Positions 1 through 7,902 of a DNA stretch of 64,000 nucleotides are shown here, in pieces (within the stretch, counting starts at the first letter, position 1; each line of letters begins with the position of its first letter). A program made the position numbers and the translations under genes. Below the pieces are notes generated by a model. That model was not told where the DNA came from. It made no database searches and saw only the letters and a list, made by a program, of their open reading frames with translations. This DNA is from Methylocystis sp. ATCC 49242 (GTDB taxonomy: Bacteria > Pseudomonadota > Alphaproteobacteria > Rhizobiales > Beijerinckiaceae): contig NZ_KE124774.1 of NCBI RefSeq assembly GCF_000188155.2, positions 2,362,356 to 2,426,355 of the forward strand. The letters are read 5' to 3'.

Positions 1-504
1 CAGCACGAGGAGCGCCATCAACAGGCCGCCGCGCCGCACGGTGACGGTCGCCGCCGCCCCGATGGCGCCGATCAGCGTCAGCGCCGGCGTCCCGACGAGC
101 AGCGTCGCGACGACGCCGACGAGAGACGCCGTCTCCTGCTGCAGCATGAGGCCGAGGAAAGGAGCGGCGACGATCAACGGCAGGCCGGTCGCGGCCCAAT
201 GCGCCGCGCATTTCACCAGCACCGCGAGCTCCAGCGGCGTGTCGCCGAGGTGAAGCAGGTCGAGCGAGCCGTCCTCGGCGTCGGCCTGGAACAGCCGGTC
301 GAAGGCGAGCAGGCTCGCGAGCAACGCCGCGATCCAGAGGATCGCCGGGCCGATGCGGGCGAGGAGGTTCGGGTCCGGCCCGACCGCGAAGGGCACGATG
401 GTCACGAGCGTGAGGAAGAACACGACGCCCATGGCGCCCGAGCCGCCGACGCGACGGGCGATGCGCCATTCACGCAGGAAGAGAGAGGCGAGCGGCGACG
501 TCAC
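1..504 (-). CDS. ccmB: Heme exporter protein B, 3' part cut by window edge
   Basis: CcmB is the membrane subunit of the CcmAB(C) ABC exporter used in system I cytochrome c maturation, where it helps release holo-CcmE. The visible 168 residues start with GTG and show the family's N-terminal pattern (SPLASLFLREWRIA, then a hydrophobic helix with FFLTLVTIVPFAVGP, then the GSLDLLHLGDTPLEL segment), followed by two further membrane helices. The GTG overlaps the TGA of ccmA by four bases (GTGA), so the two are translationally coupled. The family is about 220 residues, so roughly 50 residues lie to the left of base 1. ccmC, ccmD and ccmG, which often follow, would be outside the window. Confidence 0.9.
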   Translation of the reverse strand, partial: MTSPLASLFLREWRIARRVGGSGAMGVVFFLTLVTIVPFAVGPDPNLLARIGPAILWIAALLASLLAFDRLFQADAEDGSLDLLHLGDTPLELAVLVKCAAHWAATGLPLIVAAPFLGLMLQQETASLVGVVATLLVGTPALTLIGAIGAAATVTVRRGGLLMALLVL

Positions 505-1163
505 TTCAATGCTCCCAGCGGCAGTTCGGCCGCTTCTTCGAGTCCCAATGGTTCGTGGGTCGCCGCGACGATGAGGCCGCCGAGCGCGCAATGGTCGCGC
601 ATGGCCTTGGCGAATTTCTCGCGCGAGCCGCGATCGAGGGCGGTCATCGGCTCGTCGAGGAGCCACAGTGGACGGAAGGCGACGAGGAGCCGCGCCAGCG
701 CCGCGCGCCGCTTCTGTCCCGCCGAGAGCGCCCCGAAGGGCGCGTCGAGCGCATGCGACAGCCCCACCACGGCGAGCGCGTCCGCCACCGAACGGCTGCG
801 CGGGTCGGGCTCGCGGGAGAGATAGCCCGCCCAGAAATCGAGATTTTCCGCCACGGTGAGCGCCGCCTTCATGCCGTCGGCATGGGCGAGATAATGGGTC
901 TGTTGCGCAAGTTCCGCCTCCGCCGCGCCACCCTCCAGCGCGACCGTTCCGCCGGCCTTGGGCAAAAGCCCGGCGATCGCGCGCAGCATTGTCGACTTGC
1001 CGACGCCGTTCCTGCCGGTCACGACCAGCGCCTCGCCGCCGGAAAGCGCGAAGCTCACCCCGTCCAACACCCGCCTGCCGCCGCGCGCGACTGCGAGATT
1101 CTCCACCCTCAGGCGGAGGGGCGAGTGAAAATCGGCGTGGGGGCGATGCGGCGAGTGTTCCAT
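501..1163 (-). CDS. ccmA: Heme exporter ATP-binding protein CcmA
   Basis: This is the ATPase of the CcmAB exporter, which drives release of heme-loaded CcmE in cytochrome c biogenesis at the inner membrane. It has all ABC motifs in order: Walker A GRNGVGKST, signature LSAGQKRRAALAR, Walker B LWLLDEPMTALD and a switch histidine in AATHEP. The length of 220 residues is normal. I chose the ATG giving MEHSPHRP; a TTG four codons upstream is in frame but less likely. It is the first gene of a minus-strand pair with ccmB. It is divergent from the sphingolipid-type operon, with about 190 bp between them. The remaining ccm genes of this window (ccmI, E, F, H) are about 23 kb away. Confidence 0.93.
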   Translation of the reverse strand: MEHSPHRPHADFHSPLRLRVENLAVARGGRRVLDGVSFALSGGEALVVTGRNGVGKSTMLRAIAGLLPKAGGTVALEGGAAEAELAQQTHYLAHADGMKAALTVAENLDFWAGYLSREPDPRSRSVADALAVVGLSHALDAPFGALSAGQKRRAALARLLVAFRPLWLLDEPMTALDRGSREKFAKAMRDHCALGGLIVAATHEPLGLEEAAELPLGALK

Positions 1164-1351
1164 TCGACAAGCCAATAGAGAAAGCCGCGCGCGAGCGCCA
1201 TAGGGGCGGCCGACGCCGGCACACTGGCGCCGACGGGGCGGGGGTGCTAAGGGACGCGATCATTCCTTGGGCGCCCGCCGACCGCGGCGCGCCCTTATCT
1301 TGAGCCGGCGAGCGCGCGACGCGGCCGGTCATGCAGGGACTGCGGATTTAA

Positions 1352-2590
1352 GTGACGAAGCACAGAAGCCTCTCGGACTATGCGTCGCGGAGATTCCGCC
1401 TCGCGGGCAACGCCCTGCTCGAGTTCAACAACCCCTTCTTCGCCCAGATCGACAAGCTGCGCGCCGATTTCGAGGCGCAGGGCACGCATTTCGTTAGCTT
1501 CGCCAATTACGACTATCTGGGCCTCGCGAATCACCCCCGCATCCGCGAGGAGGCCAAGCGCGAGGTCGACAATCTCGGCATTGGCGCCCTGGCGTCGCGG
1601 CTCGTCGGCGGCGAGCGCACGACCCACAAGCAGTTCGAGGCGGAGATCGCGAGATTCATCGGCATGGAGAGCGCGCTGGCGCTGGTCTCCGGCTATCTCG
1701 CCAATGTGACGACGATCGCCTATCTGATGAACGGCAAGCGCGACGCCATTTTCATCGACGAACTCGCGCACAACAGCATCGTCTACGGCGCCGAGGGCGC
1801 GCCCGCCCATGTCGTCAAGTTCCGCCACAACGACATGGATCACCTGGACCATCTGCTGGCGCGCCATCGCGAGGAATATCGCAATGTGCTCGTCGTGGTC
1901 GAAGGCGTCTACAGCATGGACGGCGACACCGCCGACCTGCCGCGTCTCTACGAGATCAAGGACAAATACAAGATCTGGCTGATGGTCGACGAGGCCCATT
2001 CGCTGGGCGTTCTCGGCGATCATGGCCGCGGCCTCGCCGAGCATCAGGGCGTCGATCCGCAGCGCATCGACATCATCGTCGGCACCATGTCGAAGAGTCT
2101 CGCCTCCTGCGGCGGCTATGTCTGCGCGAAGAAGGAGGTGATCGAGTGGTTTCGCTTCACCCTTCCCGGCTTCGTCTACAGCGTCGGCTTCTCGCCCGTC
2201 ATTCTCGCGGCGGCGCGTACGGCGCTCAAACTGATGCAGGAGGAGACCTGGCGTATCGGGAAACTCGCGCAGAACGCCGAGCTCTTCCGCCAGGTCGCGC
2301 ATGAGAACGGCTTTTCCACCGGCCCGGCCATCGGCCGCGGCGTGGTGCCGATCCTGTTCGAAAGCGACCTCGAGACCATGTGGGCGGCGCGCCATTTGCT
2401 CGAAAAGGGCTATTACGTGCCGCCCGTCGTGCGCATCGGCGTGCCCAAGGACGGCCCACGCCTTCGCTTCTTCTTCTCCGCCAATCACACCGAGGCCGAG
2501 ATTCGCGGCGTCATTCATGCATTGCGCGACATGCCTCCGGTGTCGGAGGAAGCCCAGCGGATCGTCGCCGCGGCGATGGCGGGCGCCTGA
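1352..2590 (+). CDS. Alpha-oxoamine synthase, serine palmitoyltransferase type
   Basis: This is a PLP-dependent alpha-oxoamine synthase, the family of serine palmitoyltransferase (SPT), KBL, BioF and HemA. It condenses an acyl thioester with an amino acid. Landmarks are DELAHNS (His140, stacks on PLP), VDEAHSLG (Asp213 and His216) and GTMSKSLAS, with Lys248 as the likely PLP lysine. Its 412 residues fit the family. The start is GTG; an in-frame TAA lies directly before it, so no upstream start is possible. The next three genes encode a ceramide-synthase-like acyltransferase and DES1- and FA2H-type enzymes, so SPT is the most economical role, making 3-ketosphinganine in the cytoplasm. BioF or another oxoamine synthase cannot be excluded by motif alone. 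No acyl carrier protein gene is adjacent, unlike some SPT loci. Confidence 0.8.
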   Translation: MTKHRSLSDYASRRFRLAGNALLEFNNPFFAQIDKLRADFEAQGTHFVSFANYDYLGLANHPRIREEAKREVDNLGIGALASRLVGGERTTHKQFEAEIARFIGMESALALVSGYLANVTTIAYLMNGKRDAIFIDELAHNSIVYGAEGAPAHVVKFRHNDMDHLDHLLARHREEYRNVLVVVEGVYSMDGDTADLPRLYEIKDKYKIWLMVDEAHSLGVLGDHGRGLAEHQGVDPQRIDIIVGTMSKSLASCGGYVCAKKEVIEWFRFTLPGFVYSVGFSPVILAAARTALKLMQEETWRIGKLAQNAELFRQVAHENGFSTGPAIGRGVVPILFESDLETMWAARHLLEKGYYVPPVVRIGVPKDGPRLRFFFSANHTEAEIRGVIHALRDMPPVSEEAQRIVAAAMAGA

Positions 2591-2667
2591 CACGCTTCGG
2601 CCGCGGGCTCGTCTCCGCGTCAATATGACGCTTTCGCGCGCGGCGTTTTGACCGATAGGACTTGTGC

Positions 2668-3870
2668 ATGGCGCGGATCGAGATTCTTCCCGTCGACGGA
2701 CTGTCGCGCTTCCTGGTCTTCTGCAAGCTGCCGCGCCTGATCTACGCGGGCGCGAAGGGCTTCGCGCCGCCGCTCGACCTCGAGCGCTGGACGCTTTTCG
2801 CCCATATGCTCAATCCGCATTACAAGCTGGTGGAGGACCAGAAATTCCTCGCCCGCCGCGACGGACAATGGGTCGGCCGCATCAGTGCGCATGTCTACAA
2901 GGACGGCATAACGCCCGTGGGGGCGAGCCCGGCGCAATTCGGCGCGCTCGACGCCATCGACGACCTCGAGGTGGTGCGCGCGCTGACGGAGGCGGCCGAG
3001 AACTGGCTGCGGGAAAAAGGCGCGACGCACGTCAACGGCCCCTTCTCGCCCACGATCAATGGCGAGTGCGGCATGCTGGTCGAGGGCTTCGAGGCGACGC
3101 CCATGATCTTCATGCCCTGGCATCCGCCCTATCTCTCGCGCCATCTCGAGGCGCTCGGCTATACAAAGGCGCAGGACCTCATCTCCTACCGCTTCGAGCT
3201 CGACGAAGGATTTCTCAACGAGGCTCCCCGCATCTCGAACCGCCGGGAATGGCGCGACCGGCTGAAGCTGCGGCCACTGAACATGGACGCGCTCAAGACC
3301 GGCGAGACGGCGCTGATGCAGGAGCTGTTCAACGACGGCTGGAGCGGCAACTGGGGCTTCGTGCCCTTCACCAAGGCCGAGTTCGACTCAACCGCCGACG
3401 CGCTGAAATTCGTCATGCCGCCGGAATTCGGCATCGTCGTCGAACTGGACGGCGTTCCCCAATCCTTCGTCATCGCGCTGCCCAATCTCTTCGAGATCGT
3501 GGCGGACATGGGTGGAAAGCTCTTCCCCTTCGGCCTGCCGCGTCTCATCTCGCGCATGCGCCATCACAAGTTCAACGCCGCGCGCATCGTGCTGCTCGGC
3601 ACGCGCAAGGCGCTTCAGAACAGCGCGACCGGCGGCGCCATTCTGCTCGCGATGATCGAGGAGATGCGCCGGCGCGGCGCTTCCGCCTCGATCAAGCATC
3701 TCGAAGCAGGATGGGTGCTCGAAAACAATCTCGCCATGCGCAAGCCGATCGAAATGTTCGGCGGCAAGGTCGACAAGATTCATCGCATTTACGAAAGACG
3801 GCTTTCCGGCGACGGCGAAGCCCTGCGTGCGCCCGACAGCGTTTCAGCAAATCCGCAAGCGACAGGATAA
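2668..3870 (+). CDS. GNAT-type N-acyltransferase, putative bacterial ceramide synthase (bCerS-like)
   Basis: This 400-residue protein has the features of the acyl-CoA N-acyltransferase-fold proteins that act as bacterial ceramide synthases in Caulobacter-type sphingolipid loci: FLVFCKLPRLIYA near the N terminus, GRISAHVYKDG, and the conserved middle stretch HVNGPFSPTINGECGML followed by PYLSRHLEALGYTKAQDLI. Such proteins are often mislabelled in databases. The expected reaction is N-acylation of a sphingoid base (or its 3-keto form). The start is the ATG seven bases after AGGA; a TTG two codons upstream is less likely. It lies 77 bp after the oxoamine synthase and four bases before the desaturase gene, so it belongs to the operon. 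The substrate assignment is inferred from family and context. Confidence 0.7.
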   Translation: MARIEILPVDGLSRFLVFCKLPRLIYAGAKGFAPPLDLERWTLFAHMLNPHYKLVEDQKFLARRDGQWVGRISAHVYKDGITPVGASPAQFGALDAIDDLEVVRALTEAAENWLREKGATHVNGPFSPTINGECGMLVEGFEATPMIFMPWHPPYLSRHLEALGYTKAQDLISYRFELDEGFLNEAPRISNRREWRDRLKLRPLNMDALKTGETALMQELFNDGWSGNWGFVPFTKAEFDSTADALKFVMPPEFGIVVELDGVPQSFVIALPNLFEIVADMGGKLFPFGLPRLISRMRHHKFNAARIVLLGTRKALQNSATGGAILLAMIEEMRRRGASASIKHLEAGWVLENNLAMRKPIEMFGGKVDKIHRIYERRLSGDGEALRAPDSVSANPQATG

Positions 3871-3874
3871 CATC

Positions 3875-4870
3875 ATGAACGGCATTTCGGTCACCGCAAA
3901 CGGCGCCGACCGCTCGCATGTCGAGCGTCGCCGGCTGATCCTCGAGAAATATCCGCAGGTGCGCGAGCTCTTCGGCAAGGACCCCGTCACCTTCAAGATC
4001 ACCGCCGGCATCTTCGTCGGCCAGCTCGTCATCGCCGCCTGGCTCGGCTGGCTCGGGCTTTCCTACTGGTGGCTGTCGCTGCTGATGGCGATCTGCGTCG
4101 GCGCCTTCGCCAATCACGCCAATTTCGTCATCATTCACGACGCCATTCACAATTGCGTCTTCGACAATCCGCTCGCCAACAAATGGACGGCGATCCTCGC
4201 GGACCTGCCCAACGCCTTCCCGACGGCGATGGGCTTTCGCTGCTATCACATCAAGCACCACTCGCATCTCTCGGCCTATGACTACGACGCCGACATTCCG
4301 AGCCAGTGGGAAGTCGAGTGGGTCGGCAACAGCACATGGCGCAAGGCGGCGTGGCTCTTCGGTTTTCCCGCGATCCAGCTCGCGCGCCTGTCGCGGCTGA
4401 AGGGCACGGTGCCGATCATGGGCAAATGGACCTATATCAACATCGCCGTGATCGCCGCCTTCGACATCTTCGTGCTCTGGGCCTTCGGGCCGAACGCCCT
4501 GCTCTATCTCTTCTTCTCCTTCTGGTTCTCGGTGGGCGGCCTGCATCCCCTCTCCGCACGCTGGGTGCAGGAGCATTTCGCCTTTGCGCCCGATCAGGGC
4601 ACCTTCGATTACTACGGGCCGCTGAACAAGCTCGCGCTCAATATCGGCTATCACAATGAGCATCACGACTTTCACGAAATTCCGTGGACGCGCCTCCCGC
4701 AGCTCACCGCCATGGCGCCGGAGTTCTATGACACGCTGCGCTGCCATCGCTCCTGGGTGGCTCTGCTCGTGACCTTCATCTTCGATCCCACCTATTCGCT
4801 CGGCACGCGCTCGGAAAATGTGACGCAGGCCGCCGAGCGCGCGGCCCCCGTCGCCGCGGCCGCGGAGTAA
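3875..4870 (+). CDS. Sphingolipid desaturase/hydroxylase, DES1 (dihydroceramide delta4-desaturase) family
   Basis: This is a membrane di-iron enzyme with the three histidine boxes HDAIH (88-92), HIKHH (125-129) and HNEHH (260-264). Beyond the general desaturase fold it carries the DES1/DEGS-specific tail: GGLHPLSARWVQEHF, then FDYYGPLNKLALNIGYHNEH, then LPQLTAMAPEFYDTL. It also has the N-terminal RRLILEKYP that matches eukaryotic dihydroceramide desaturases. Eukaryotic members introduce the 4,5-trans double bond or a C4 hydroxyl into the sphingoid base of ceramide. At 331 residues it has the eukaryotic length. Four hydrophobic stretches (about 42-80, 105-120, 185-220) support an inner-membrane protein. 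AGGA overlaps the end of the upstream gene, indicating coupling. Whether it desaturates or hydroxylates cannot be read from sequence. Confidence 0.87.
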   Translation: MNGISVTANGADRSHVERRRLILEKYPQVRELFGKDPVTFKITAGIFVGQLVIAAWLGWLGLSYWWLSLLMAICVGAFANHANFVIIHDAIHNCVFDNPLANKWTAILADLPNAFPTAMGFRCYHIKHHSHLSAYDYDADIPSQWEVEWVGNSTWRKAAWLFGFPAIQLARLSRLKGTVPIMGKWTYINIAVIAAFDIFVLWAFGPNALLYLFFSFWFSVGGLHPLSARWVQEHFAFAPDQGTFDYYGPLNKLALNIGYHNEHHDFHEIPWTRLPQLTAMAPEFYDTLRCHRSWVALLVTFIFDPTYSLGTRSENVTQAAERAAPVAAAAE

Positions 4871-4874
4871 GCCC

Positions 4875-5528
4875 ATGACGCAGGACATAAAGACCCAGGG
4901 CGAGCCGCTCGACGCCTCCCCGCGCCTTTTCGAGAACGATCTCCTCGACAAAATGTCGCGCGTGCATCACCTCACGCCGGTGATCGTCTATACGCCGATC
5001 TTTCTCGGCCTGGTCTTCTATTCGCTGACGCTGAACGGCGTCGCGCTGGTGCTGCTGGGCCTCGTGCTGGGCTATCTCGGCTGGACGCTGACCGAATATT
5101 TCGGCCACCGCTATCTGTTCCATACGGTGTTTCCGCTGCCCTTCGGGCTCGGCCCGCGTTTCCAGTTCCTCATCCACGGCGTGCATCACATCTATCCCAA
5201 CGACCCGCTGCGGCTCGTGATGCCGCCGCTGCTGTCGGCGCCGATCATGCTGATCGCGCTCGCCATCATCCGCGCGCTGTTCGGCGCGACATTCGCCTGG
5301 CCGGTGCTCGCGGGCTTCATGGGGGGCTATGTGATCTACGACTGCGTGCACTACTGGACGCATCACGGCCAGCCGACGTCGGAGTTCGGCAAGATGGTGA
5401 AGCGGCTGCACATGCTGCACCACTTCCGCGACGCGGAGAAGGGTTTTGGCGTGCACGCGATCTGGTGGGATTACGTGTTCGGCACCGCCTACAAAAAGGG
5501 TGAAACGCCGGGGTCGAAGGCGGTTTGA
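4875..5528 (+). CDS. Fatty-acid 2-hydroxylase (FA2H/Scs7-type sterol desaturase superfamily)
   Basis: This is an integral-membrane di-metal hydroxylase. It opens with RLFENDLLDKMS, close to the start of the yeast Scs7 catalytic domain, and shows the histidine clusters HRYLFH (78-83), HGVHH (101-105), HYWTHH (159-164) and HMLHH (179-183). It also has the FA2H-like PLRLVMPP and GFGVHAIWWDYVFGT. FA2H enzymes place a 2-hydroxyl on the N-acyl chain of ceramide. At 217 residues it is the catalytic domain only; the N-terminal cytochrome b5 domain of eukaryotic FA2H is absent, so electrons must come from elsewhere. It begins four bases after the desaturase stop, with GGAG in the spacer region, and is the last gene of the operon. 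Confidence 0.85.
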   Translation: MTQDIKTQGEPLDASPRLFENDLLDKMSRVHHLTPVIVYTPIFLGLVFYSLTLNGVALVLLGLVLGYLGWTLTEYFGHRYLFHTVFPLPFGLGPRFQFLIHGVHHIYPNDPLRLVMPPLLSAPIMLIALAIIRALFGATFAWPVLAGFMGGYVIYDCVHYWTHHGQPTSEFGKMVKRLHMLHHFRDAEKGFGVHAIWWDYVFGTAYKKGETPGSKAV

Positions 5529-5545
5529 ACTAAATGGGGTTGACG

Positions 5546-5594
5546 CCCCTCGTGCTTCGAGACGCCCGCTTCGCAGGCTCCTCAGCATGAGGGG
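5546..5594. repeat. Palindromic dispersed repeat, copy 1
   Basis: This is a hairpin with 11-base arms CCCCTCGTGCT and AGCATGAGGGG (one mismatch) around a core containing TTCGAGACGC and CTCCTCAG. It is the same family as the element 29 bp downstream, which lies in the opposite orientation. Similar palindromes are scattered between genes in many Hyphomicrobiales genomes. Sitting between two convergent genes, it may act as a transcription end point. Confidence 0.75.
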
Positions 5595-5622
5595 CTTCTT
5601 TTCCGGGCGTCAGACACTCAGG

Positions 5623-5667
5623 CCTCACCCTGAGGAGCGAGCGAAGCTCGCGTCTCGAAGGGCGAGG
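5623..5667. repeat. Palindromic dispersed repeat, copy 2 (inverted relative to copy 1)
   Basis: The arms are CCTCACCCT and AGGGCGAGG. Read on the minus strand it aligns with copy 1 through CTTCGAGACGC, GCTTCGC and GCTCCTCAG. The pair therefore forms two individual hairpins and can also pair as one large inverted repeat, between the FA2H-type gene and ligA, which end facing each other. Confidence 0.75.
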
Positions 5668-5679
5668 CCGCCTCGACCG

Positions 5680-7902
<2,223 letters not shown>

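Follow-up and report, generated by a model that had tools for sequence, protein, structure and literature searches.

Sphingolipid synthesis in Caulobacter crescentus and Escherichia coli BL21, which draws on spt, acpR, aasR, cerR/epi, and cerS/aca (yghO), has at its core an alpha-oxoamine synthase (AOS) and an N-acyltransferase of the YghO family. YghO (aca, ECD_02850) and CC_1154 have been assigned the N-acyltransferase step of dihydroceramide synthesis, and AcpR and AasR were found wherever the rhodobacterial serine palmitoyltransferase (SPT) occurs (PMC9386255). Caulobacter also 2-hydroxylates its sphingolipids (PMC11324152) and, according to the available text of PMC6445935, glycosylates ceramide; by the same text, it is a known exception to the chemotaxonomic view, expressed in the available part of PMC7179689, that alphaproteobacterial sphingolipids are apparently restricted to the Sphingomonadales. 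In Pseudomonas fluorescens MYb115, SgaAB is described in the accessible portion of PMC12134224 as an AOS with SPT activity that is fed by a dedicated synthase, the type I polyketide synthase (PKS) SgaA. Finally, a plasmid of Roseomonas mucosa carries an SPT cluster in which a gene of the sterol desaturase (FAH) family immediately precedes a YghO-family gene.

Here, we describe an operon of Methylocystis sp. ATCC 49242 that lies in a window of 64,000 nucleotides (contig NZ_KE124774.1, positions 2,362,356 to 2,426,355). Like the Caulobacter and E. coli systems, it combines an AOS with a YghO-family protein, but its AOS falls outside the canonical SPT clade. DES1- and FA2H-type genes are part of the core operon, whereas Caulobacter relies for N-acyl hydroxylation on the unlinked DesA-family gene CCNA_00202 (PMC11324152). 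The glycosyltransferases that we associate with the operon are a GT21 and a GT2, in contrast to Sgt1 and Sgt2 of Caulobacter, which the available text of PMC6445935 describes as GT-4 family enzymes. In place of a type I PKS, a split ACP/KAS/MaoC/SDR block is the candidate source of acyl chains, and SgaAB is described, as far as the accessible account goes, without DES, FAH, or GT21 (PMC12134224). Since the R. mucosa cluster unites FAH and YghO-family genes, the combination of core and FAH is not unique to the Methylocystis window; that cluster, however, has no DES annotated. Its SPT is canonical and is accompanied by ACP, fatty acyl-AMP ligase, and SDR, and its head-group genes (CDP-alcohol phosphatidyltransferase and nucleotidyltransferase) are of the phospho type. 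Among eukaryotic enzymes, DES1/DEGS, Scs7/FA2H, and ceramide glucosyltransferase have apparent counterparts in gene 3 (through Lipid_DES), gene 4, and the linked GT21. Yet, gene 4 is a hydroxylase alone, with 217 amino acids compared to 392 in Scs7 (4zr0), N-acylation is predicted to proceed via a GNAT and not a eukaryotic ceramide synthase, and gene 1 stands alone.

Results

The preliminary description of this DNA had reported four same-strand genes separated by gaps of 77, 4, and 4 bases, and re-derivation of the open reading frames (ORFs) gave exactly these values (Table 1). Judged by conservation across the genus, the four ORFs are real genes. An ortholog of gene 3 occurs in 36 of 37 same-genus genomes, including its own, the exception being G022; genes 2, 3, and 4 are present in all 19 short same-genus loci that we opened (L014 to L032); and four longer ones (L034 to L037) hold all four genes in identical order with 60 to 84% identity. 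Within the operon there is no ketoreductase, carrier protein, or head-group enzyme. Scans for promoters and tRNAs returned nothing, while a terminator scan gave four terminator-like sequences, all on the minus strand, versus 3.6 expected.

Table 1. The four genes of the operon, with positions counted from the first letter of the window.
Gene	Family	Coordinates	Strand	Start codon	Length (aa)
1	AOS of non-canonical SPT-like lineage	1352..2590	+	GTG	412
2	Tandem-GNAT protein of YghO/bCerS (cerS, aca) family	2668..3870	+	ATG	400
3	DES1-type membrane desaturase/hydroxylase	3875..4870	+		331
4	FA2H/Scs7-type fatty acid hydroxylase	4875..5528	+		217

The family labels first given to the genes held up, with one qualification: profiles and phylogeny identify gene 1 as an AOS but not as a canonical SPT. 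Gene 1 matches PF00155 (168.2 bits, cut-off 19.7) and carries the motifs LAHNS (138), DEAH (213), and TMSK (245). Its top PDB matches are SPTs (3a2b and 8guh, E = 2e-61), with Kbl (1fc4, E = 1.5e-60) close behind. It scores below every curated SPT equivalog cut-off (NF047599, 295.1 versus 500; NF047600, 284.2 versus 640; NF047603, 208.4 versus 670), and its top-scoring NCBIfam model is bioF, for which it is also below the cut-off (341.7 versus 426.45). After removal of 12 redundant entries from the 52 sequences collected, the AOS tree comprised 40 rows; its sources included SPT loci (11 of 23 collected) and plasmids (13 regions drawn from 570 plasmid records with AOS matches), and SgaB is absent from the tree. 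Gene 1 belongs to a clade of 13 rows (100/99), shared with a PKS-fused AOS of Streptomyces and separate from the canonical SPT clade (10 rows, 100/100). Twelve rows of BioF, Kbl, ALAS, and B. glumae part from the other 28 at 97/96, and the tree rules out that gene 1 is simply a BioF, a Kbl, or an ALAS. A constrained tree uniting the gene 1 clade with canonical SPT was not rejected (p = 0.394); uniting it with BioF costs 17.5 lnL, and this arrangement too escapes formal rejection (p = 0.0725). A poorly supported branch (68/16) of the best tree has the gene 1 clade and BioF/Kbl/ALAS on the same side. These analyses place gene 1 as an AOS of its own deep lineage, together with the PKS-fused enzyme, and not as a canonical SPT. 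Two other AOS genes of the same genome fall elsewhere, one with ALAS (C6:2963k, 98/92) and one in a weakly supported BioF group (C6:2428k, 87/70).

Gene 2 has no Pfam match at E 0.001, and it is homologous over its full length to YghO of E. coli BL21 (36% identity over 381 amino acids, E = 1e-80). The GNAT label holds because the top PDB structure matches of its AlphaFold model (pLDDT 76.9) are tandem GNATs (E = 2e-12) and because a verrucomicrobial relative passes PF00583. Members of this family adjoin SPT genes in E. coli, Pseudomonas veronii, and Roseomonas, and we propose gene 2 as a putative N-acyltransferase (ceramide synthase) of the bCerS family. With gene 1 outside BioF/Kbl/ALAS and gene 2 in the bCerS family, neither of the placements that the preliminary description had named as speaking against it came true.

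Gene 3 passes PF00487 (FA_desaturase; 78.6 bits, cut-off 29.7) as well as PF08557 (Lipid_DES, the sphingolipid Delta4-desaturase model; 35.7 bits, cut-off 23). Lipid_DES is rare in the phylum (4 of 299 sampled genomes, its own included), and a PF08557 match in genome G108 (locus L051) has no similarity to gene 3 at E 1e-3. Three histidine boxes (H88xxxH92, H125xxHH129, and H260NEHH264) are invariant across 16 sequences from three phyla. A PDB search by sequence returned nothing at E 0.1; with the structure model, a single PDB entry matched at E ≤ 0.001 and AlkB at 0.017. Searches for DES gave no match in plasmids and 56 pattern matches in viral contigs, none of which was confirmed. We propose gene 3 as a candidate enzyme for desaturating the long-chain base at the 4,5 position or hydroxylating it at C4.

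Gene 4 passes PF04116 (59.2 bits, cut-off 31), and its sole PDB matches at E 0.1 are to Scs7 (4zr0 and 4zr1, E = 3e-23, residues 38 to 212). Yeast Scs7 has an N-terminal cytochrome b5 domain; gene 4 has neither an N-terminal extension nor that domain, and its match begins at residue 205 of 4zr0. It is proposed as a candidate 2-hydroxylase of the N-acyl chain.

The gene-neighborhood search suggested in the preliminary description covered loci around the best 80 of 243 relatives of gene 3, with coordinates for locus distances transcribed by hand. Relatives of genes 1 and 2 are also found at 65 of these 80 loci, and 47 of the 80 hold all four families; the loci span two phyla and show two gene orders. 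The co-location of the four families exceeds chance. AOS-GNAT-DES recurs in the Beijerinckiaceae, and soil Verrucomicrobia have the same four families in a different order. Within the same scan, among the 32 Pseudomonadota loci from outside Methylocystis, gene 4 is near in just 9; gene 3 occurs without the other three in all three Bacteroidota loci examined, as it does in genome G055. An Acidisoma plasmid brings together GNAT-SDR-AOS-sterol desaturase family-GT.

Steps absent from the operon have candidates elsewhere, which goes beyond the earlier account. A comparison of shared neighbors took in 20 of the 80 loci, leaving out a recurring antisense ORF family as a high-G+C artifact. In relatives, a block of ACP-ketosynthase-small protein-MaoC-SDR-glycosyltransferase adjoins AOS-GNAT-DES; across the 32 Pseudomonadota loci just mentioned, from the best 80 of 243, GT is near in 17, KAS in 12, and ACP in 10. 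The Methylocystis genome has an equal block in the same order about 50 kb upstream of the operon, outside the window, along with an ACP of the Beijerinckiaceae type. This block also holds a GT21 that matches PF13506 (Glyco_transf_21; 146.5 bits, cut-off 21.7, E = 7e-43), has ceramide glucosyltransferase (26qf/26qs, E = 1.8e-31) as its sole significant PDB match, and remains below the HpnI model cut-off (155.7 versus 310). A second GT21-like gene elsewhere in the genome is 29% identical to it. The GT21 of the block has an ortholog in 36 of 37 genomes of the genus, and G022, a genome only 89% complete, lacks gene 1, gene 3, and GT21 jointly. Inside the block, GT21 was seen in the Methylocystis genome and in locus L100; L114, L120, and L124 have no space for it between GT and SDR.

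In a further difference from Caulobacter and E. coli, the genome has no clear ortholog of CerR or AasR. The best CerR match (31%, E = 3e-11) is an epimerase-like ORF at another locus, presumably HpnA-like, and was ruled out as CerR. The best AasR match (35%, E = 7e-90) lies inside a multidomain protein of 951 amino acids and was ruled out as AasR.

Discussion

Our results suggest, with a probability of roughly three in four, that the operon encodes half of a sphingolipid pathway split between two places in the genome, whose product would be a glycosylated, C4-modified, and 2-hydroxylated bacterial ceramide. In the order of steps that we infer, gene 1 would condense an acyl thioester with an amino acid (serine being the likeliest), giving a 3-keto long-chain base, which gene 2 would N-acylate. 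The SDR encoded about 50 kb upstream would reduce the 3-keto group, gene 3 would either desaturate the 4,5 position or hydroxylate C4, gene 4 would place a 2-hydroxyl on the N-acyl chain, and sugar would be attached to C1 by glycosyltransferases encoded in the upstream block (GT21 and GT2). Synthesis, elongation, or carriage of the acyl chain used by gene 1 or gene 2 may fall to the same block, through its dedicated ACP, ketosynthase, and MaoC-type dehydratase; the predicted ceramide pathway is perhaps supplied by its own type II fatty-acid synthase. The split pathway is favored by the membership of gene 2 in the bCerS family, the Lipid_DES match of gene 3 with its rarity in the phylum, and the similarity of gene 4 to Scs7, as well as by the co-location of the four families and of the block in relatives, the GT21 match, the joint absence in G022, and the grouping on the Acidisoma plasmid. 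It is weakened by the bioF model topping the gene 1 profiles with no SPT cut-off reached, by the weak branch and the p value for grouping with BioF, by the missing AasR and CerR orthologs, the incompleteness of the G022 genome, and the lack of space for GT21 at three loci, and by gene 4 being near in a minority of the other Pseudomonadota loci and gene 3 alone in Bacteroidota and G055.

The position of gene 1 bears on a different outcome. BioF uses alanine and Kbl glycine; if gene 1 did likewise, instead of taking serine, the product tailored by genes 2 to 4 would be a 1-deoxy ceramide-type lipid. We consider this unlikely: GT21 and GT2 are linked to the pathway, and the C1 hydroxyl is the position at which ceramide glucosyltransferases of GT21 add their sugar. 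The scores of gene 1 under all SPT cut-offs, with bioF as best model and Kbl close in the PDB, do fit such a product, and the available text of PMC11334938 discusses bacterial products with 1-deoxy ceramide backbones. Substrate breadth in the desaturase and FAH superfamilies raises another alternative, in which genes 1 and 2 make an N-acyl aminoketone while genes 3 and 4 serve phospholipids or hopanoids and are linked to them only by membrane-lipid regulation. According to the accessible part of PMC6460317, a role as hopanoid desaturases has been suggested for FAH-family proteins in a methanotroph. Yet, the Lipid_DES model is curated as sphingolipid-specific, Scs7 is the sole solved relative of gene 4, and Verrucomicrobia unite the four families in a different order, which makes this arrangement quite improbable. 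That the product is a secreted secondary metabolite (a free amino alcohol or N-acyl base) seems very improbable, even though gene 1 clusters with the Streptomyces PKS-fused AOS, the upstream block looks like a type II synthase, and SgaAB makes PKS-derived sphingolipids as secondary metabolites in the available account (PMC12134224), since conservation throughout nearly all of the genus, two tailoring enzymes, and GT21 suit a membrane lipid better.

Returning to the split ceramide pathway, a broader proposal can be put forward only tentatively, at somewhat short of even odds. It may represent a third bacterial route to sphingolipids, defined by a distinct AOS lineage with its own ACP-KAS-MaoC-SDR block, a bCerS, DES1-type and Scs7-type enzymes, and GT21. 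Methanotrophs and other Beijerinckiaceae would then obtain glucosylceramide-like lipids resembling those of plants and fungi, while soil Verrucomicrobia would combine the same tailoring pair with another SPT and a head group of phospho type.

If true, our findings would widen the range of bacteria known to make sphingolipids decorated like those of plants, fungi, and animals. The predicted pathway would provide candidate genes for the C4 modification of bacterial ceramides and would permit tests of the origin or exchange of eukaryote-style ceramide tailoring. Its presence in Methylocystis, Methylosinus, Methylocapsa, Methylocella, and Beijerinckia would give major methane consumers another class of membrane lipid.

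Conservation of the operon and its gene families

The four genes of the operon were found again at exactly the positions first described, on a single strand and with gaps of 77, 4 and 4 bases. An ortholog of gene 3 occurs in 36 of 37 same-genus genomes; genes 2 and 4 accompany it in 19 of 19 short same-genus loci, and the complete set is present in all four longer ones. Judged by their translations, the gene on one side would encode a CcmA-type ABC ATPase and that on the other an NAD-dependent DNA ligase, which would place the operon between housekeeping-type genes. By eye, a short G+C-rich repeat recurs in the intergenic DNA beyond gene 4, its copies being related and partly inverted.

Locations of the operon and related features
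Feature	Location	Strand	Remarks
Gene 1 (AOS)	window 1352-2590	+	window ORF
Gene 2 (GNAT/bCerS)	window 2668-3870	+	window ORF; 77-base gap from gene 1
Gene 3 (DES1-type)	window 3875-4870	+	window ORF; 4-base gap from gene 2
Gene 4 (FA2H/Scs7-type)	window 4875-5528	+	window ORF; 4-base gap from gene 3
Presumed CcmA-type ABC ATPase	window 501-1175	-	operon flank
Presumed NAD-dependent DNA ligase	window 5680-7797	-	other operon flank
Repeat copies	window 5536-5665		intergenic, 3' of gene 4
Own-genome block	C6:2308434-2313985 = L151:5435-10986	-	same order as in relatives; ~50 kb upstream of gene 1, outside window
AOS-like frame, own genome	C6:25443-26474 (L011, L054)		broken by one TAA
Soil Verrucomicrobia sets	L127:3735-11446; L131:6001-12790; L129:1012-7401		DES, FAH, SPT-like AOS, CDP-alcohol phosphotransferase, GNAT
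Acidisoma sp. PAMC 29798 plasmid	L179:11882-17072		GNAT, SDR, AOS, sterol desaturase family protein, glycosyltransferase adjacent
Streptomyces anthocyanicus plasmid	L180:5299-10122		1607 aa protein

The families proposed for genes 2, 3 and 4 in the preliminary description were borne out. Gene 2, assigned to the GNAT-type bCerS family, had no Pfam match at 0.001; it aligned with YghO of Escherichia coli BL21 over 381 residues (36% identity, E 1e-80), and its predicted model (mean pLDDT 76.9) matched tandem GNAT structures (E 2e-12). YghO (ECD_02850) and Caulobacter CC_1154 are reported as N-acyltransferases of dihydroceramide synthesis (PMC9386255), and the neighbors of yghO in BL21 encode a fatty acyl-AMP ligase, an epimerase, an acyl carrier protein (ACP) and SPT. 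Gene 3, described as DES1-type, exceeded the cut-offs of both FA_desaturase and the sphingolipid-specific Lipid_DES, a family that is rare in the phylum (4 of 299 sampled genomes, its own counted and one doubtful); all eight of its box histidines are invariant across 16 sequences that span Pseudomonadota, Verrucomicrobiota and Bacteroidota. Gene 4, described as FA2H-type, passed the FA_hydroxylase cut-off, and its only PDB match at E 0.1 was Scs7, which hydroxylates ceramide in yeast (E 3e-23). In another genome (G305; loci L049 and L166), an SPT above the family cut-off and a DES-type gene 41% identical to gene 3 lie far apart on the same contig.

An oxoamine synthase outside the canonical SPT clade

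The SPT label given to gene 1 stood only in part. It is an alpha-oxoamine synthase (AOS) by its PF00155 match, and serine palmitoyltransferases are its top PDB relatives (2e-61), with a slim lead over Kbl (1.5e-60), but it scored below every curated NCBIfam cut-off for SPT, bioF and Kbl. A simple SPT label is weakened because the highest of these scores was for bioF. In a 40-row AOS tree, several of whose long branches were flagged by the program, gene 1 did not fall within BioF/Kbl, the position that had been raised against the SPT reading: 12 rows (BioF, Kbl, ALAS and a Burkholderia glumae AOS) separated from the other 28 with support of 97/96. The larger side holds canonical SPTs, Verrucomicrobial SPT-like proteins and a 13-row clade (100/99) that includes gene 1 and lies outside the canonical SPT clade. 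Its members come from Methylocystis (Sn-Cys being the nearest named relative, 95% identity), Methylosinus, other Beijerinckiaceae and the Acidisoma plasmid, together with a PKS-fused AOS from Streptomyces. Joining this clade to the canonical SPTs was not rejected (p 0.394), and joining it to BioF cost 17.5 lnL (p 0.0725); the best tree unites it with BioF/Kbl/ALAS through a weak branch (68/16).

SPT activity has been reported for SgaB, a PKS-linked AOS that is not among the 40 rows (PMC12134224). The S. anthocyanicus protein has a C-terminal AOS 44% identical to gene 1, and its start reads as a polyketide ketosynthase. The interrupted AOS-like frame in the own genome looks like a paralogue, either decayed or damaged in sequencing.

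Co-occurrence across relatives

A scan of named genomes by gene-3 alignment yielded 243 relatives, and the best 80 were kept. As the preliminary description had proposed, we searched their neighborhoods for the four families: relatives of genes 1 and 2 were present in 65 of the 80 loci and all four families in 47, these and the following counts being lower bounds because several loci end at contig ends. The closest loci are from Methylocystis, and among the 29 Methylocystis/Methylosinus-like loci gene 4 was always present and genes 1 and 2 were missing only from one (L094), which begins at a contig end. Genes 1 and 2 also occurred in 27 of 32 other Pseudomonadota loci, with gene 4 in nine. Among 16 Verrucomicrobiota loci, 13 had an AOS, 15 a hydroxylase (FAH) and 10 all four. 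Gene 3 stood without the others in the Bacteroidota loci (relatives of genes 1, 2 and 4 near it in 0 of 3), in L142 and L144, and in genome G055.

Two Verrucomicrobiota loci (L127, its proteins assigned by Pfam, and L131) share the order DES-FAH-SPT-CDP-alcohol phosphotransferase-GNAT, and the soil Verrucomicrobia set as a whole suggests a phospho-type head group. An MMPL protein precedes DES in L127, and additional CDP-alcohol transferases lie close by in L129 and L131.

A candidate second half of the pathway

A ketoreductase, a carrier protein and a head-group enzyme are all missing from the operon itself. Within the 32 other Pseudomonadota loci, we found a glycosyltransferase (GT) in 17, a ketosynthase (KAS) in 12 and an ACP in 10. 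The complete block (e.g., L114, L120 and L124) runs ACP-ketosynthase-small protein-MaoC-SDR-GT, convergent with AOS-GNAT-DES, and its small protein has no family match. Methylocystis sp. ATCC 49242 carries a block of its own, a candidate for the second half of the pathway, which encodes an ACP, a FabF-like ketosynthase, a 132 aa protein that matched no family, MaoC, an SDR, GT21 and GT2. Identity to the relatives' block is 67% for ACP, 62% for KAS, 57% for SDR, 51% for GT, 41% for MaoC and 33% for the small protein.

GT21 is an extra gene between SDR and GT2, shared with L100; none occupies that position in L114, L120 or L124. It matched PF13506 (E 7e-43), its sole significant PDB match was ceramide glucosyltransferase (26qf, 26qs; E 1.8e-31), and it scored 155.7 of 310 against the HpnI model, under the cut-off. 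A second GT21-like gene elsewhere in the genome is 29% identical. Of the 37 genus genomes, 36 have a GT21 ortholog (55-77% identical); the exception, G022, is 89% complete and also lacks genes 3 and 1. Where gene 3 and GT21 share a contig (19 genomes), they lie 43-82 kb apart in 15 and 165 kb to 2.8 Mb apart in four. The FAS-like genes of the block could serve some other product.

With the block as second half, the most likely pathway would proceed from AOS through N-acylation, reduction, C4 modification and 2-hydroxylation to glycosylation. The dedicated ACP would supply an acyl chain for gene 1 to condense with serine, gene 2 would N-acylate the product, the SDR would carry out the reduction, gene 3 would modify C4 by either desaturation or hydroxylation, gene 4 would perform the 2-hydroxylation, and GT21 and GT2 would glycosylate. 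GT21 enzymes act on the C1 hydroxyl, and serine is therefore favored over alanine or glycine. Gene 2 and the SDR may act in either order, since acylation is reported ahead of reduction in Caulobacter (PMC11087976).

Relation to known systems

The preliminary description knew of no earlier account of the core and both tailoring enzymes together in one compact bacterial operon. A Roseomonas SPT cluster already pairs FAH with an adjacent YghO-family gene. The Acidisoma plasmid set, whose AOS is 49% identical to gene 1, lacks DES, and N-acyl chain hydroxylation in Caulobacter is attributed to an unlinked DesA-family protein (PMC11324152). A d18:1 ceramide has been reported in Caulobacter (PMC6445935). 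Given these precedents, what is distinctive is that a DES1-type gene sits in the operon, that the AOS is non-canonical and that a block of FAS-like genes and GT21 is linked to the operon. Counting against the proposed pathway, clear orthologs of AasR and CerR were absent from the own genome, and gene 3 also stands apart from the others in the loci named above. Among the matches listed in the open-access literature, we found no report of sphingolipids or such an operon in Methylocystis or Beijerinckiaceae, nor of any bacterial sphingolipid cluster that includes a DES1-type gene.

The original interpretation is partly supported and extended, its gene families standing with the SPT label of gene 1 qualified. 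Sphingolipids in Alphaproteobacteria have been called apparently restricted to Sphingomonadales (PMC7179689). From these genes, we infer that Methylocystis sp. ATCC 49242 may carry out bacterial sphingolipid synthesis of a new form.
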